Assembly: GCF_021502675.1 (NCBI RefSeq)
Contig: NZ_JAKFHA010000011.1
Location: 62,001 to 126,000, forward strand
DNA: 64,000 nt
Source of the DNA: Yinghuangia soli
GTDB taxonomy: Bacteria; Actinomycetota; Actinomycetes; Streptomycetales; Streptomycetaceae
Direction: 5' to 3'
Part shown: piece after piece, positions 32,124-60,574 of the stretch
Position numbering within the stretch: the first letter of the stretch is position 1
Layout of the letters: every line of letters begins with the position of its first letter
Notes under the pieces: model-generated
What the model was told of the DNA's origin: nothing
The model's input: the letters and a program-made list of their open reading frames with translations, nothing else
The model's database searches: none
Translations under genes and position numbers: made by a program

Positions 32124-32933
32124 CTAGGCCGGCATCGTGCCCACGACGACGGTGGCGTACAGCTCCGCGCAGACGGCGATTTCCACGCACAGCCCGCTGC
32201 GTCCGAACGCCTCCGCGGTGCCGGGTGCCTGATGCTCGCTCGTCTCCACGAGCAGCCGCCCGCCGGGCGCCAGCCACGCGGGGGCCTGTTCGGCGACGCG
32301 GCGGTGGATGGCCAGACCGTCGCGGCCGCCGTCGAGCGCCACCAGCGGTTCGTGGTCGCGGGCTTCGCTGGGGAGCAGCCCGATCTCTTCGGTCGGGACG
32401 TACGGCGCATTCGCGACCAGCACGTCGACGCGTCCCAGGAGATGCCGGGGCAACGCCGCGTAGAGATCGCCCCTGTGCACGGTGCCGCCCACCGGCGCGA
32501 GGTTGCCCGCGGCGCACCGGACCGCGTCCGGGTCGATGTCCGCCGCGTGCAGTTCGACATCGCTCAGCATCGAACCGAGCACCGCACCGACAGCGCCCGA
32601 GCCGCAGCACAGGTCGACCACCACGGTCGGTCCCGGCGCGGCGGACCCGTGCACGAGGGCGACGGCCTCGTGGACCAGGAACTCCGTACGCCGACGCGGC
32701 ACGAACACCCCGGGCGCGACCGCCAACCGCAGGCCGCAGAACTCGGCCCAGCCCAGGACGTGTTCGAGCGGCAGTCCGGAGCACCGGCGTTCGACCATCC
32801 CGACGAGCGAGAGGCTGTCGGGTGCGGCGGCGAGCAGCAGCGCCGCCTCGTCTTCGGCGAAAACACAGCCGGCGGTACGCAGAGCCGAGACGACCTCGGC
32901 GAAGACATCATCGGAAACGATCGGGAGTGACAT
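32124..32933 (-). CDS. PrmC-related N5-glutamine methyltransferase-like protein
   Basis: A 269-residue class I SAM-dependent methyltransferase close to HemK/PrmC. SAM motif I is VVDLCCGSGAVGAVL and the acidic loop is AADIDPDAV. The catalytic NPPY of PrmC is replaced by NAPYVPTEE. The N-terminal helical domain is shorter than in PrmC and includes LEHVLGWAEFCGLRL. This fits the actinobacterial PrmC-like subfamily of unknown substrate (TIGR03704 type), not the release-factor methyltransferase itself. ATG at 32933 was chosen. Both neighbours are separate units; the HAD gene begins 170 bp upstream on the same strand. Confidence 0.8.
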   Translation of the reverse strand: MSLPIVSDDVFAEVVSALRTAGCVFAEDEAALLLAAAPDSLSLVGMVERRCSGLPLEHVLGWAEFCGLRLAVAPGVFVPRRRTEFLVHEAVALVHGSAAPGPTVVVDLCCGSGAVGAVLGSMLSDVELHAADIDPDAVRCAAGNLAPVGGTVHRGDLYAALPRHLLGRVDVLVANAPYVPTEEIGLLPSEARDHEPLVALDGGRDGLAIHRRVAEQAPAWLAPGGRLLVETSEHQAPGTAEAFGRSGLCVEIAVCAELYATVVVGTMPA

Positions 32934-33102
32934 GTGAGGACCTTTCGGAGTGCCGAAGGGTGCCCTCACGGTCGCTCGCGCGTCAGCTCGCGGCGGCCGT
33001 ACGGCCGGTGGAAGAGAGCACCCAGCCTGCTGCAGCGGTAATGGGTCTCACCTCCCTGGTCCATGGCGCCCGGCGCGCGGACCGCACACGGACGCGGCAA
33101 CA

Positions 33103-37818: not shown

Positions 37819-39480
37819 ATGGCCCGTACGAACCCCATGCACCAACTGCGCCGGATGTTCGCCGACCACGCCGCGGCCGACCGACTCCGCATGCCGGTCG
37901 CCGAGTTCCGCGGCATGCGCGACGAGGCGGCCGCCGACCCGGCGGGCCCGAGCCGCCGCGCGCTGATCAAGCGCGGCACCGCCCTGGGCATCGGACTCGG
38001 CGTCGGCGCCGCGGCGATGAGCCGCCCGGCCTTCGCCGCGGTGGAGAGCAAGCCGATCGTCACCAACAAGCGCATCGCGATCATCGGCGGCGGCATCTCC
38101 GGCCTGACCGCCGCGCTCACGCTGGCCGACAGGGGCGTCAAGGCCACCGTGTACGAGGCGAATCCGACGCGCGTGGGCGGCCGCATGTGGACCCAGCGCA
38201 CGTACTGGGGCGGCGGCCAGACCTCGGAGATCGGCGGCGAGCTGATCGACACCGGGCACAAGAAGATGCTCGAACTGTGCCGCCGTTTCGGGTTGTCCAC
38301 GGTGGACTTCGCCGCCTCCGGCCCGGCCGGCGCGACCGAGACCCTGTGGTTCGGCGGCGGCTACTACGACCGTGCGCAGGCCGACGAGGACTTCAAGGCC
38401 ATGTACCAGGCGGTCCGCCGCGACTACTCCGAGGCGGGCACGCCCACCTGGAACAGCGCCACGCCGACCGGCATCGCCATGTCGAACATGAACCTGTACG
38501 ACTGGATCGAGTCCCGCACGCCGGGCGGACACGCGTCCCGGCTGGGCAAGTTCCTCGACTGCGCGTACAACGTCGAGTACGGCGCCGACACCGTGAACCA
38601 GGCCGCGTACGCGGCGGTCTGCATGCTCGGCTGGCAGTCGAACCCGGGGCACTTCAACATCTGGGGCGGTTCGAACGAGCGCTACCACGTGGTCGGCGGC
38701 AACGACCAGGTCACGTCGGCGGTTGCGGCGGCCCTGCCGTCGGGTTCGATCCAGATGGGCTACAAACTGGTCGCGATCCGGGCAAACTCCGACGGAACCC
38801 AGACGCTGACCTTCGACAACGGCGGAACGACCAAGACGGTCACGGCCGATCACACGATCCTGACCGTGCCGCTGCCGATCCTGCAGGGCCTCGACCTGAG
38901 CCGGGCGAACTTCGACCCGCTGATGACGAACCTGCTGCGCGACGCCCGCATGGGCTACGTCACCAAGCTCAACATGAAGTTCACCTCCCGCCCGTGGCGC
39001 GGCACCGGCCCGTGGCCCGGCGTCGCCGCCGGCGACTGCTTCACCGAGCAGCCGTTCCAGCAGACCTGGGACACCACCAAGGCGCAGGCCGGGACCGGCG
39101 GTGTGCTCATCCAGTACGGCGGCGGCAGCCTGGCCTACGGCCTCAACCCCGCAGGCCCGTTCAACACCGACAGCGACCCCGCGGTGCGCGCGATCGCGCA
39201 GAACTACCTGGGCCAGATCGACACCGTCTTCCCCGGCACCCGGGCGGCGTGGACCGGCAAGGCGCAGCTCTCCGCCTGGCACAAGAACCCGTACTCGCTG
39301 GGGGCTTACTCGTACTGGCCGGTGTCCTACCTGCACCGCTACGCGGGCTACGAGGGTACCCGCCAGGGCAACGTGCACATCGGCGGCGAGCACACCTCGT
39401 ACGACTTCCAGGGCTTCATGAACGGCGGTGCGGTGGAAGGCGAACGCGCCGCGAACGAGGTGATCGCGGACCTGCGCTGA
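37819..39480 (+). CDS. Tat-exported FAD-dependent amine oxidase
   Basis: A 553-residue flavin monoamine oxidase-family protein. Residues 1-73 form a long N-region with twin arginines at 46-47 (PSRRALIKRGTALGIGLG) and a cleavage-like AFA at 71-73, indicating Tat export already folded with FAD. The dinucleotide motif IIGGGISGLTAALTLADRG follows at residue 88. The C-terminal FAD contacts are in NVHIGGEHTSYDFQGFMNGG. Substrate choice among polyamines, amino acids or other amines is not readable. AAAGGA precedes ATG at 37819. It follows the APC permease but behind a terminator. Confidence 0.88.
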   Translation: MARTNPMHQLRRMFADHAAADRLRMPVAEFRGMRDEAAADPAGPSRRALIKRGTALGIGLGVGAAAMSRPAFAAVESKPIVTNKRIAIIGGGISGLTAALTLADRGVKATVYEANPTRVGGRMWTQRTYWGGGQTSEIGGELIDTGHKKMLELCRRFGLSTVDFAASGPAGATETLWFGGGYYDRAQADEDFKAMYQAVRRDYSEAGTPTWNSATPTGIAMSNMNLYDWIESRTPGGHASRLGKFLDCAYNVEYGADTVNQAAYAAVCMLGWQSNPGHFNIWGGSNERYHVVGGNDQVTSAVAAALPSGSIQMGYKLVAIRANSDGTQTLTFDNGGTTKTVTADHTILTVPLPILQGLDLSRANFDPLMTNLLRDARMGYVTKLNMKFTSRPWRGTGPWPGVAAGDCFTEQPFQQTWDTTKAQAGTGGVLIQYGGGSLAYGLNPAGPFNTDSDPAVRAIAQNYLGQIDTVFPGTRAAWTGKAQLSAWHKNPYSLGAYSYWPVSYLHRYAGYEGTRQGNVHIGGEHTSYDFQGFMNGGAVEGERAANEVIADLR

Positions 39481-39517
39481 CCCCCGCGCCGGCACCTGCG
39501 CTGACACCTGCGCAGGC
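39470..39517 (+). repeat. ACCTGCGCTGAC repeats spanning the amine oxidase stop codon
   Basis: Copy 1 (39470-39481) encodes the last residues and the stop. An identical copy is at 39494-39505, followed directly by a variant ACCTGCGCAGGC (39506-39517). Confidence 0.8.
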
Positions 39518-39540
39518 ACCTGTCCCGATGCTTGCGCCGA

Positions 39541-39960
39541 CAATCTGATTTGCGTCCGGGGCACGTGTCCCGAGTCACCCCGTTTCGGCCCCGACTGCGC
39601 GGTTTGCAGTCGGGGCCGTTGGGCATTCTTGGCCGGGTACGGCGATCCGGTGAACCGAACTTGACTGATAGATAAGGATCTGTCAGTAATAGTGCCAGAT
39701 GTCCGATATTTGAACGGGTAGTTAGCGGGTGAGCCTGGGTCTGTCAAGGCCCAACCAAGCGTCATTGTCGGTCAGTTCAGTGTCGAACTCGCCGATGAAA
39801 CCGGGGTTATCCGGTCATCCCATGACAGATGAGTATTCTTCGGTCTGGATCTGGACCGGCCCGACGCCACCGAACCGCGAGCCACGCGGGCGGAAGTGCA
39901 GGCCGGTCAGGCGCAACAAAGAGCAGTCTGATGAAACGTCAGGCGGCTCATAGCTCAACC
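39541..39960. other. AT-rich 420-bp stretch with no recognisable gene
   Basis: By count, 39661-39720 is 40% GC and 39781-39840 is 50%. It holds a palindrome with promoter-like hexamers, and frames at 39729-39953 (74 codons) and 39822-39953 (43 codons; MTDEYSSVWIWTG) whose codons are unlike the neighbours (ACA, GAT, TAT, TCT, AAA). No start has a clear Shine-Dalgarno. The stretch ends before two terminators. It may be a small RNA gene, an acquired fragment or a decayed gene. Confidence 0.45.
39664..39687 (+). promoter_or_regulatory. 24-bp palindrome overlapping a promoter-like sequence
   Basis: ACTGATAGAT (39664-39673) and ATCTGTCAGT (39678-39687) pair at 9 of 10 positions around AAGG. TTGACT begins at 39661 and AGTAAT begins 18 bp after it, a plausible sigma-70 type promoter. 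A TetR-like operator is one reading. Confidence 0.5.
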
Positions 39961-39988
39961 GGTCGTGGCCTGCCGCACTGACCAGCAC

Positions 39989-40026
39989 CCGCCCTCCCAC
40001 CTGCCAGGGGAGGGCGGTCGGCTTTT
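39989..40026 (+). terminator. Plus-strand intrinsic terminator
   Basis: CCGCCCTCCC (39989-39998) pairs perfectly with GGGAGGGCGG (40008-40017) and is followed by TCGGCTTTT. The T-run points to transcription from the left, that is, from the AT-rich gene-free stretch. Confidence 0.75.
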
Positions 40027-40057
40027 CCGGACCGGAGAGAGCCGCCGAGGAACCGCG

Positions 40058-40090
40058 ACGGCCCGCCTCCCTTGTGGGGAAGCGGGCCGT
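40058..40090 (-). terminator. Citrate synthase terminator
   Basis: ACGGCCCGC (40058-40066) pairs with GCGGGCCGT (40082-40090), with CTCCC/GGGGA pairing inside, 46 bp past the stop at 40136. Confidence 0.75.
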
Positions 40091-40135
40091 CCGATGCGCT
40101 TGTACGGGTCGAGAGCCGTACGAACTGCCAGGGTG

Positions 40136-41245
40136 CTACTTGATGTTGGCCACCGTGTCGTCGTAGCCCGGCACCTCGGTGATCGGGCGGGTGCCCGGGC
40201 CGATGTAGCGAGCCGACGGGCGCACGAGGCGCGAGGTGCGCTTGTGCTCCAGGATGTGCGCGCTCCACCCGGCGGTGCGGGCGCAGGTGAACATCGAGGT
40301 GAACATGTTGGCCGGCACCTCCGCGAAGTCCAGCATCACGGCGGCCCAGAACTCCACGTTGGTGGCCAGCACGCGGTCGGGGCGGCGGGCGTGCAGCTCC
40401 TCCAGTGCGGCCTTCTCCAGCGCCGCGGCCACCTCGTAGCGGGGCGCGCCCAGCTCCTTGGCGGTACGGCGCAGCACGCGCGCCCGCGGGTCCTCGGCGC
40501 GGTAGACGCGGTGGCCGAAGCCCATCAGGCGCTCGCCGCGGTCGAGGACGCCCTTGACGTACGCGGTGGCGTCGCCGGTGCGCTCGATCTCCTCGATCAT
40601 GTGCAGCACACGCGACGGCGCACCGCCGTGCAGCGGGCCGGACATCGCGCCGACCGCGCCGGACAGGCACGCCGCGACGTCGGCGCCGGTGCCGGCGATG
40701 ACGCGGGCGGTGAACGTCGAGGCGTTCATGCCGTGCTCGGCGGCCGAGGTCCAGTACGCGTCGACGGCCTTGACGTGCTTCGGGTCCGGCTCGCCGCGCC
40801 AGCGGATCATGAACCGCTCGACGATCGTGTCGGCCTTGTCGACCTCACGCTGCGGGACCATGGGCTTGTCCAGGCCGCGCGCCGACTGGGCGACGTAGGA
40901 CAGCGCCATGACCGCGGCACGGGCCAGGTCGTCGCGCGCCTGCGCGTCGTCGATGTCGTGCAGCGGCTTGAGACCCCACACCGGGGCGAGCATGGCCAGC
41001 GCGCTCTGCACGTCCACGCGGATGTCGCCGGAATGGATGGGGATCGGGAAGGACTCCGCGGGCGGGAGGCCCGGGTTGAAGGCGCCGTCGACCAGCAGTC
41101 CCCAGACGTTGCCGAAGGAGACGCGCCCGACGAGGTCCTCGATGTCCACGCCGCGGTAGCGGAGCGCGCCGCCTTCCTTGTCGGGTTCGGCGATCTCCGT
41201 CTCGAACGCTATGACTCCTTCGAGTCCGGGTACGAAGTCGGACAT
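40136..41245 (-). CDS. Citrate synthase (type II, short bacterial form)
   Basis: A 369-residue enzyme condensing acetyl-CoA and oxaloacetate. Signature pieces are GGALRYRGVDIEDLV near the N-terminus, GPLHGGAPSRVLHM with an active-site His, GFGHRVYRAEDPRARVL with the second His, and NVEFWAAVMLDFAEVP with the catalytic Asp region, so it is complete. It matches the second citrate synthase that sits beside pdxH in Streptomyces; some such paralogues act as methylcitrate synthases, which cannot be excluded. ATG at 41245 was taken. The 435-bp upstream region shared with pdxH is full of repeats. Confidence 0.92.
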   Translation of the reverse strand: MSDFVPGLEGVIAFETEIAEPDKEGGALRYRGVDIEDLVGRVSFGNVWGLLVDGAFNPGLPPAESFPIPIHSGDIRVDVQSALAMLAPVWGLKPLHDIDDAQARDDLARAAVMALSYVAQSARGLDKPMVPQREVDKADTIVERFMIRWRGEPDPKHVKAVDAYWTSAAEHGMNASTFTARVIAGTGADVAACLSGAVGAMSGPLHGGAPSRVLHMIEEIERTGDATAYVKGVLDRGERLMGFGHRVYRAEDPRARVLRRTAKELGAPRYEVAAALEKAALEELHARRPDRVLATNVEFWAAVMLDFAEVPANMFTSMFTCARTAGWSAHILEHKRTSRLVRPSARYIGPGTRPITEVPGYDDTVANIK

Positions 41246-41271
41246 CAGGCGGCTCCTCAGGCGATCTCGAC

Positions 41272-45012: not shown

Positions 45013-45035
45013 CCCGCCCGGCCGCGGAAAAGCAG

Positions 45036-45100
45036 CGACCCGCAGGCCTTCCCTCACTGGGGAGGGGGCCGAGGGGACGTCCTCGGCAGCCTGCGGGTCG
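45036..45100. terminator. Branched terminator between the M20 gene and a minus-strand RNA
   Basis: The outer arms 45036-45047 and 45089-45100 are perfect over 12 bp. Inside, GCCGAGG (45068-45074) pairs perfectly with CCTCGGC (45081-45087), giving a branched fold. T-rich tracts lie outside both ends (CTTTT on the minus strand, GGTTTT on the plus strand), so it can serve both directions. Confidence 0.78.
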
Positions 45101-45259
45101 GGTGTCTGCCTGGTTTTCGCCGACCGCCTGACACCTTCCGCAACGGTGCACTCGTTGCGGGTCAGACTTCGGTCGGGAGACCGGAGTGGCGGCTAGCGGG
45201 CAGCCACCTCACGCGTCCGATTGCTACACATAAGATCGAACCACCTCCTTTCCCGTGTA
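45101..45259 (-). ncRNA. Candidate structured small RNA with a 12-codon leader frame
   Basis: On the minus strand a promoter-like TTGCGG-17-TAACTT (45294 to 45266) is followed by AAAGGAGGTGG (45251-45241) and a 12-codon frame at 45231-45193. Four hairpins come next: GTGGC/GCCAC (45186-45207), CGGTC/GACCG (45070-type arms at 45170-45183), an 8-bp perfect CCGCAACG/CGTTGCGG stem (45138-45160), and GGTGTC/GACACC (45101-45135). The terminator at 45036-45100 ends it. No minus-strand gene lies downstream, so a trans-acting RNA is more likely than a leader. Family unknown to me. Confidence 0.55.
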
Positions 45260-45429
45260 CCGCAGAAGTTAGATCCACATCGGCGGCACCGCAACGGATT
45301 AAACGGGTGGGGGATGTCACCCCTCGGACGGGAATAAGCCGGACGCTTTAGCGGTCGTTCCCACGGGGCGCGCTGCCGGTGAACAGCGTTGGCAGGCGTG
45401 TGAGTTGCGCTCGGCTGCGGGCATCGGGG

Positions 45430-59866: not shown

Positions 59867-60574
59867 CTACCCCTGTGCCGGTGCTGCTTCCGCCGTCGAC
59901 TTCTCCAGCATGGCGAGGGTGTTGGCGTGGGTGCCGACGACGTGCTGCCGGGCGAGTTCGGCGGCTTTCGCGGAGTCGCGGGCGGCGATGGCGGCGTAGA
60001 GCCGCTCGTGTTCGCCGCACATGGCGGCGCCGTCCTCCGGGGTGGAGGTGAGCCGGAAGAGCCGGCGGAGCCGGCCGTCGAGCGGCGTCATCAGGTCCTT
60101 GAGCAGCGGGTTGCCCGACATGTCCACGATTTGCTGGTGGAAGTCGGCGTTGAGGGCGACGGCCTCGCGCAGGCGGCCGTTCCCGGCGGCGCGGCGGGAG
60201 CGGTCGAGGATGCGTTCCAGGGACCGAAGTTCGGCGTCGGTGGCGTGTTCGGCGGCGAGCCCCGCGGCGAGGGCTTCGAGCGACTCGCGGACCGCGAAGA
60301 AGTGCCGGGCGTCCTCGGGGCCGAAGTCCGCGACGACCGCGCCCTTGCGCGGCTGGATGGCGATGAACCCCTCGGTCTCCAGGCGCTGCATGGCCTCGCG
60401 CACGGGGATGCGCGAAACGCCCAGCTCCTCGGCGATCTCGCGCTCCACGAGCCGGCGGCCCGCCGCGTACTGGCCCTCGATGATGCGCTCGCGCAGTTCG
60501 ACGTACGCCTGGTCCCGCAGCGACCGGTGGGCGTCGCCCATGCTCGGGCCGTCGGCGGGGGTGCGGGGGCTCAT
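59867..60574 (-). CDS. GntR-family (FCD/FadR-type) transcriptional regulator
   Basis: A 235-residue repressor. The N-terminal winged helix contains GRRLVEREIAEELGVSRIPVREAMQRLETEGFI, and the C-terminal all-helical FCD domain has metal-ligand histidines in NADFHQQIVDMSGN and in the HERLYAAIAARD segment. FCD regulators respond to organic acids and control adjacent catabolic genes. It is divergent from an amidohydrolase-permease pair with a TGGTAT/ATACCA palindrome between them, the form typical of this family. ATG at 60574 was taken; a second Met lies at residue 12. Confidence 0.9.
   Translation of the reverse strand: MSPRTPADGPSMGDAHRSLRDQAYVELRERIIEGQYAAGRRLVEREIAEELGVSRIPVREAMQRLETEGFIAIQPRKGAVVADFGPEDARHFFAVRESLEALAAGLAAEHATDAELRSLERILDRSRRAAGNGRLREAVALNADFHQQIVDMSGNPLLKDLMTPLDGRLRRLFRLTSTPEDGAAMCGEHERLYAAIAARDSAKAAELARQHVVGTHANTLAMLEKSTAEAAPAQG

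Follow-up and report, generated by a model that had tools for sequence, protein, structure and literature searches.

The window analyzed here, a 64-kb stretch of a 9.7-Mb Yinghuangia genome, contains a gap of 655 bases that separates an amine oxidase gene (37819-39480, + strand) from a citrate synthase gene (40136-41245, - strand). The two genes are convergent around a low-GC stretch (39541-40026), which has 61% GC as compared to 65 to 80% in most 500-base windows. The original prediction that GC content falls to 40% at 39661-39720 proved exact, and this value is the minimum in a scan of the 64 kb with 60-base windows at 10-base steps. Three hairpins split the gap (39586-39618, 39989-40017, the latter followed by TTTT, and 40057-40091). 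The outer two are probably the terminators of the flanking genes, each of which has its own terminator-like hairpin, and the one between them marks the end of a separate unit (Table 1). The stop codon of the amine oxidase gene lies within a tandem repeat (39470-39517) of two 24-base copies that are 88% alike; this repeat is not conserved in the sister genome described below.

Table 1. Features of the unit, its borders, and its candidate target (positions in the window).
Feature	Position	Strand	Remark
Hairpin with perfect 13-nt arms directly 3′ of the amine oxidase gene; probable terminator; unit boundary	39586-39618	+	Identical in the sister genome
Conserved block upstream of the -35 hexamer; possible activator site	39620-39652	+	Kept in all three congeners
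Promoter-like TTGACT-18-AGTAAT	39661-39690	+	TTGAC kept in three genomes; unreported by consensus scan
Imperfect palindrome across the promoter spacer	39664-39687	.	Unique in the genome; not kept in the third congener
Predicted small RNA gene, approximate ends	39695-40026	+	Conservation, folding
P1, 5′ hairpin	39696-39712	+	Folds in all three genomes
P2 hairpin	39737-39752	+	Missing in the third congener
P3 hairpin	39765-39798	+	Missing in the third congener
P4 hairpin	39800-39815	+	Missing in the third congener
P5 hairpin	39854-39908	+	Kept in all three genomes
P6 hairpin; 3′ arm (39936-39949) complementary to the citrate synthase start	39921-39949	+	
Terminator-like hairpin and TTTT closing the RNA	39989-40026	+	
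Hairpin 3′ of the citrate synthase gene; its probable terminator; unit boundary	40057-40091	-	
Candidate target: citrate synthase RBS edge and AUG (GAGCCGCCTGATGT)	41242-41255	-	

The unit had been predicted to carry a 24-bp palindrome overlapping a promoter, and a terminator at its end. The palindrome is present at the size given, and the promoter and terminator are present in a form weaker than claimed. The palindrome (ACTGATAGAT-AAGG-ATCTGTCAGT) is imperfect, with 9 of the 10 arm pairs formed in this genome and 8 in the sister genome. It overlaps both promoter hexamers (TTGACT at 39661-39666 and AGTAAT at 39685-39690), which are weak as a promoter; a sigma-70 scan that demands an A as the second base of the downstream hexamer found no promoter here. 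Likewise, the 10-bp terminator stem (39989-39998 with 40008-40017) is real, and its tail is only TTTT, starting 5 nt past the stem or, in the predicted fold, directly past an added 3-bp helix (AGC/GCU); a scan requiring 5 T in 8 reported no terminator at 39989-40026.

A search for the palindrome at up to three mismatches returned one site in the genome, and its role as the operator of a regulon was rejected on this ground. The third congener keeps TTGAC, AATAGTG, and the upstream block. The sister genome has a 10-bp insertion between the upstream block and the -35 hexamer. Because this insertion keeps the helical phase, an activator site within the upstream block seems to be a better bet than the palindrome.

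Conservation and predicted fold of the unit

The genus Yinghuangia is represented by three genomes in our comparison set: the one analyzed here, a sister genome taken to be Yinghuangia seranimata, and a third congener. Comparison of the locus in close relatives, which the original prediction had proposed as a check, found the unit at full length in the sister genome and shortened in the third congener. Between this genome and its sister, 39695-40026 aligns without gaps and is identical at 313 of 332 positions (94%). By comparison, the four-fold degenerate sites of four nearby genes (amine oxidase, citrate synthase, pyridoxamine oxidase, and permease, with a DNA identity of 82 to 95% to the sister genome) are identical at 594 of 839 positions (71%; P 4e-27). 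Conservation sets in at about the amine oxidase hairpin and ends four bases past the T-tract, with identity down to 46% in the bin 39500-39599 and to 50% just past 40030. Most of the full-length RNA is constrained between the two genomes, loops included, and 39695-40026 is a non-coding sequence under selection with defined ends. This conservation far above that of the flanking genes, together with the flanking terminator-like hairpins, goes beyond what had been observed originally.

Beyond the T-tract, the sister genome carries an insertion of about 2 kb (L044, 5526-7526) that contains an ECF sigma gene, lies directly behind the unit, and is absent there in the other two genomes. In the third congener, identity is 76% over the block 39620-39709 and reaches 50 of 55 positions over 39857-39911; set against its four-fold sites (61% identical, two genes), this corresponds to P 7e-7 for the 55-base hairpin and 0.003 for the 90-base block. 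The third congener lacks 147 bases between these conserved blocks as well as everything from P5 to the citrate synthase hairpin, so that only the promoter block, P1 at the 5′ end, and a single hairpin of 55 nt are retained, while the terminator and most of the RNA are missing. Another gene, which we take to be methyltransferase-like and whose DNA matches window 32136-33062, stands there in the place of the amine oxidase. Citrate synthase adjoins the unit in all three congeners, with the amine oxidase, the ECF sigma insertion, and the methyltransferase-like gene as variable neighbors. Because these other neighbors differ among the three genomes, the RNA behaves as an independent unit whose place near citrate synthase is kept.

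The + strand of 39695-40026 is predicted to form a multi-branched fold of -149.8 kcal/mol, with z of -3.76 against shuffled sequences as compared to -2.25 for the - strand. The corresponding z was -3.26 in the sister genome and -3.22 for the short form of the third congener, in which the folded stretch includes the strong citrate synthase hairpin. Among 50 control folds (332-base stretches from 25 places, both strands), the mean z was -0.47, and none was at or below -3.3. By conservation and by folding, the unit exceeds chance.

The substitutions between the genomes bear on both the helices and the strand. The end pair of P1, C39696-G39712, is replaced by G-C in the sister genome, which represents a compensatory change. 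In P5, 58 of 60 pair cells are standard over the three sequences, with one pair altered on both sides and two by wobble; sliding the partner cuts the pairing to 23 to 33%, and the pair counts do not exceed those of the shuffled control (163/500). Thus, the covariation, resting on three genomes, is thin. The minimum-energy fold of this genome has a pair broken by 8 of the 19 changes found in the sister genome (P 0.20, not significant); a consensus fold with no pair broken by these changes was built from the same two sequences and is therefore biased. Four wobble changes (at 39749, at 39922, and two in P5) are tolerated by the + strand alone, as they produce mismatches on the - strand. These changes and the T-tract together indicate the + strand.

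Given the sharp-ended conservation, the folding, the compensatory changes, and the lack of a coding signal (see below), we consider 39695-40026 likely (probability of about 0.82) to be an autonomous gene for a structured, genus-restricted non-coding small RNA of ~330 nt on the + strand. This agrees with the small RNA outline drawn in the original prediction. The gene would have its own promoter region and intrinsic terminator, both weak by consensus, and from the sequence features we infer that the RNA is transcribed and has a regulatory role.

Candidate partners of the predicted RNA

The 3′ arm of P6 can form 14 contiguous pairs, 13 Watson-Crick and one G-U, with the citrate synthase mRNA at GAGCCGCCUGAUGU, from the SD edge through the AUG (-31.7 kcal/mol). 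On both strands of the genome, GAGCCGCCTGAYGT occurs twice, once at the citrate synthase start and once as the complement of the RNA itself. The target sequence is the same in the other two congeners and common in the family; the arm is present in this genome and its sister only, being absent from the third congener. The helix energy ranks 16th in the window, with 15 other places pairing as well or better, and this rank converts to a chance of ~0.005 when a single 40-base start region is considered and of 0.02 for four neighbors. In cofolding with the whole RNA, the citrate synthase start was equaled by 2 of the 60 shuffles and by 6 of the 120 random 70-mers; with the domain 39909-39985, the counts were 0 of 60 and 3 of 118. 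The whole RNA cofolded with the amine oxidase start at -13.6 versus -14.8 for citrate synthase, and the sister pair gave -11.2. Whole-length duplex energies with five neighboring start regions were uninformative, as 26 of 150 shuffles did as well as citrate synthase. The arm itself is buried in P6.

The pairing suggests translational repression of citrate synthase, which, as the statistics are only suggestive, we put forward tentatively and consider less likely than not. P6 would open, and its freed 3′ arm would pair with the RBS edge and AUG of the citrate synthase mRNA and repress its translation. P1 would protect the 5′ end of the RNA, and P5, which is retained even in the most divergent species, could serve in protein binding or stability. 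More speculatively, P6 might store the anti-start-codon strand, with its other arm imitating the target (GAGCAGUCUGAUG versus GAGCCGCCUGAUG), such that TCA cycle entry would be throttled by a signal that opens P6, and P5, left almost on its own in one species, might be a second module with a separate job.

Alternatively, the RNA may bind a protein, for example RNA polymerase in the manner of Ms1 and 6S RNA, and not pair with mRNA at all, in which case the protein would bind at P5 and the match to citrate synthase would be due to chance. We regard this as a realistic possibility, though short of even odds. The loops of P5 are nearly unchanged in the third and most divergent genome, the constraint on the full-length RNA extends over most of its length, and the pairing with citrate synthase is no more than suggestive. 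These observations have to be weighed against a locus that is not the HAD-hydrolase-linked place reported for Ms1 (PMC9130861), the lack of an Rfam match, and a multi-branched fold in place of a 6S-like rod. An Ms1- or 6S-like RNA was itself rejected as a candidate, the neighbors being amine oxidase and citrate synthase and the fold being branched. Other targets would account for the probability remaining beside citrate synthase and protein binding.

Other readings of the locus

The stretch contains open frames of 74, 50, and 61 amino acids, none with a Pfam match. In the sister genome, the 74-amino acid frame has lost its start and gained a stop, and the 61-amino acid frame on the - strand has gained a stop as well, which leaves two of the three frames broken. 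The 50-amino acid frame is open in both genomes, as a small protein gene would require; however, its changed codons comprise four nonsynonymous versus two synonymous, and its four-fold sites are identical at 29 of 31 positions as compared to 71% in real genes. A decayed gene would not be expected to show 94% identity. With frames that are either broken or without coding constraint, and without a Pfam match, we rejected protein coding and consider a small protein gene or decayed gene at 39695-40026 very unlikely. The description of the stretch as gene-free thus holds for proteins.

It is similarly improbable that the stretch is a 5′ leader or riboswitch of a downstream gene. The ECF sigma gene of the sister genome would be such a gene, as it lies on the same strand past the terminator, with its frame starting ~75 bases past the T-tract. 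However, there is no + strand gene downstream in the other two genomes, where citrate synthase is convergent, and no close counterpart of the sigma gene exists in this genome (the best match has 44% identity and a stop) or, at E 1e-30, in the third congener. A leader is thus contradicted in two of the three genomes. The acquired mini-element of the original prediction has in its favor a GC content below that of the surroundings and a full-length form in two genomes only, but we give it hardly any weight, since it is conserved above gene level, occurs as a single copy in the genome, keeps its place next to citrate synthase in all three congeners, has neither the several copies and terminal repeats of a MITE nor element-like flanking repeats, and finds no match in plasmids, phages, or (by hairpin pattern) viral contigs.

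Distribution and relation to known small RNAs

A DNA search of 394 family genomes gave scores above 45 bits in the three congeners only. A model of P5, searched against 121 family genomes at E up to 0.1 and against 345 class genomes at E up to 1e-4, scored 86 to 92 bits in the three congeners and at most 35 bits elsewhere among the matches listed. Nine of the weak matches were aligned and taken as chance; one of these is a second, intergenic site in the third congener (L093, 2047-2108, - strand; 34.9 bits), which keeps the inner sequence and has three pairs broken. A scan of genome contigs returned three loci, one from Y. seranimata and two from unrelated MAGs, and the P5 model did not confirm the MAG loci. 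Of 30 citrate synthase loci fetched for comparison, three were from the congeners, and no counterpart was seen at the other 27 (L069 covers ~340 bases past the stop codon); nor did the citrate synthase loci reveal a conserved RNA-like stretch common to three close relatives. No Rfam 15 family reached its gathering score, the best in the gap (28.6 bits versus 50) lying over the citrate synthase hairpin, and a literature search found no paper joining Yinghuangia and small RNA. Judged by these searches, the predicted RNA is restricted to the genus Yinghuangia, with no convincing homologue outside.

Another conserved actinobacterial small RNA, Ms_IGR-5 (RF02471), is found near the same genes (window 45030-45258, - strand; 102.6 bits). 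In contrast to the predicted RNA, it belongs to a known Rfam family, is unrelated in sequence, and lies on the - strand; the stretch 45019-45336 is 88% identical in the sister genome, which is below the value for the new RNA. ARAGORN also called a tRNA-Ala (anticodon CGC) at window 59932-60031 (+ strand), which has an unusual length of 100 nt and is possibly false or decayed.

Spot 42 is a small RNA that acts on citrate synthase mRNA and, like VcdRP and NgncR_162/163, is proteobacterial. To our knowledge, none of these RNAs is a neighbor of its citrate synthase target gene, whereas in Yinghuangia the candidate target has the predicted RNA gene on its 3′ side. VcdRP (PMC8672173) and NgncR_162/163 (PMC9973317) are also reported to act on citrate synthase mRNA, so that the enzyme and the mode of action, pairing, would be the same as proposed here.

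Two stand-alone RNAs offer actinobacterial parallels. The Streptomyces coelicolor small RNA scr5239 is reported to bind mRNA targets and to influence central-metabolism enzymes (PMC4365011, PMC7025569), and as such provides a precedent for the control of central metabolism by a small RNA in Streptomyces. It is 159 nt long and conserved in streptomycetes, whereas the Yinghuangia RNA is ~330 nt, genus-restricted, and has only a candidate target. Ms1/scr3559 is likewise a structured RNA of a few hundred nucleotides (~230 nt in S. coelicolor); it is HAD-hydrolase-linked and binds the RNA polymerase core (PMC9130861), while the Yinghuangia RNA differs in its locus and its multi-branched fold.

The catalogue of small RNAs from streptomycete relatives is sparse, and the unit described here would add a new small RNA gene without an Rfam family. 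The naturally shortened version in the third congener offers a ready comparison of domain roles. If the pairing with citrate synthase is real, entry into the TCA cycle would be under the control of an RNA brake whose gene lies back to back with that of the target.
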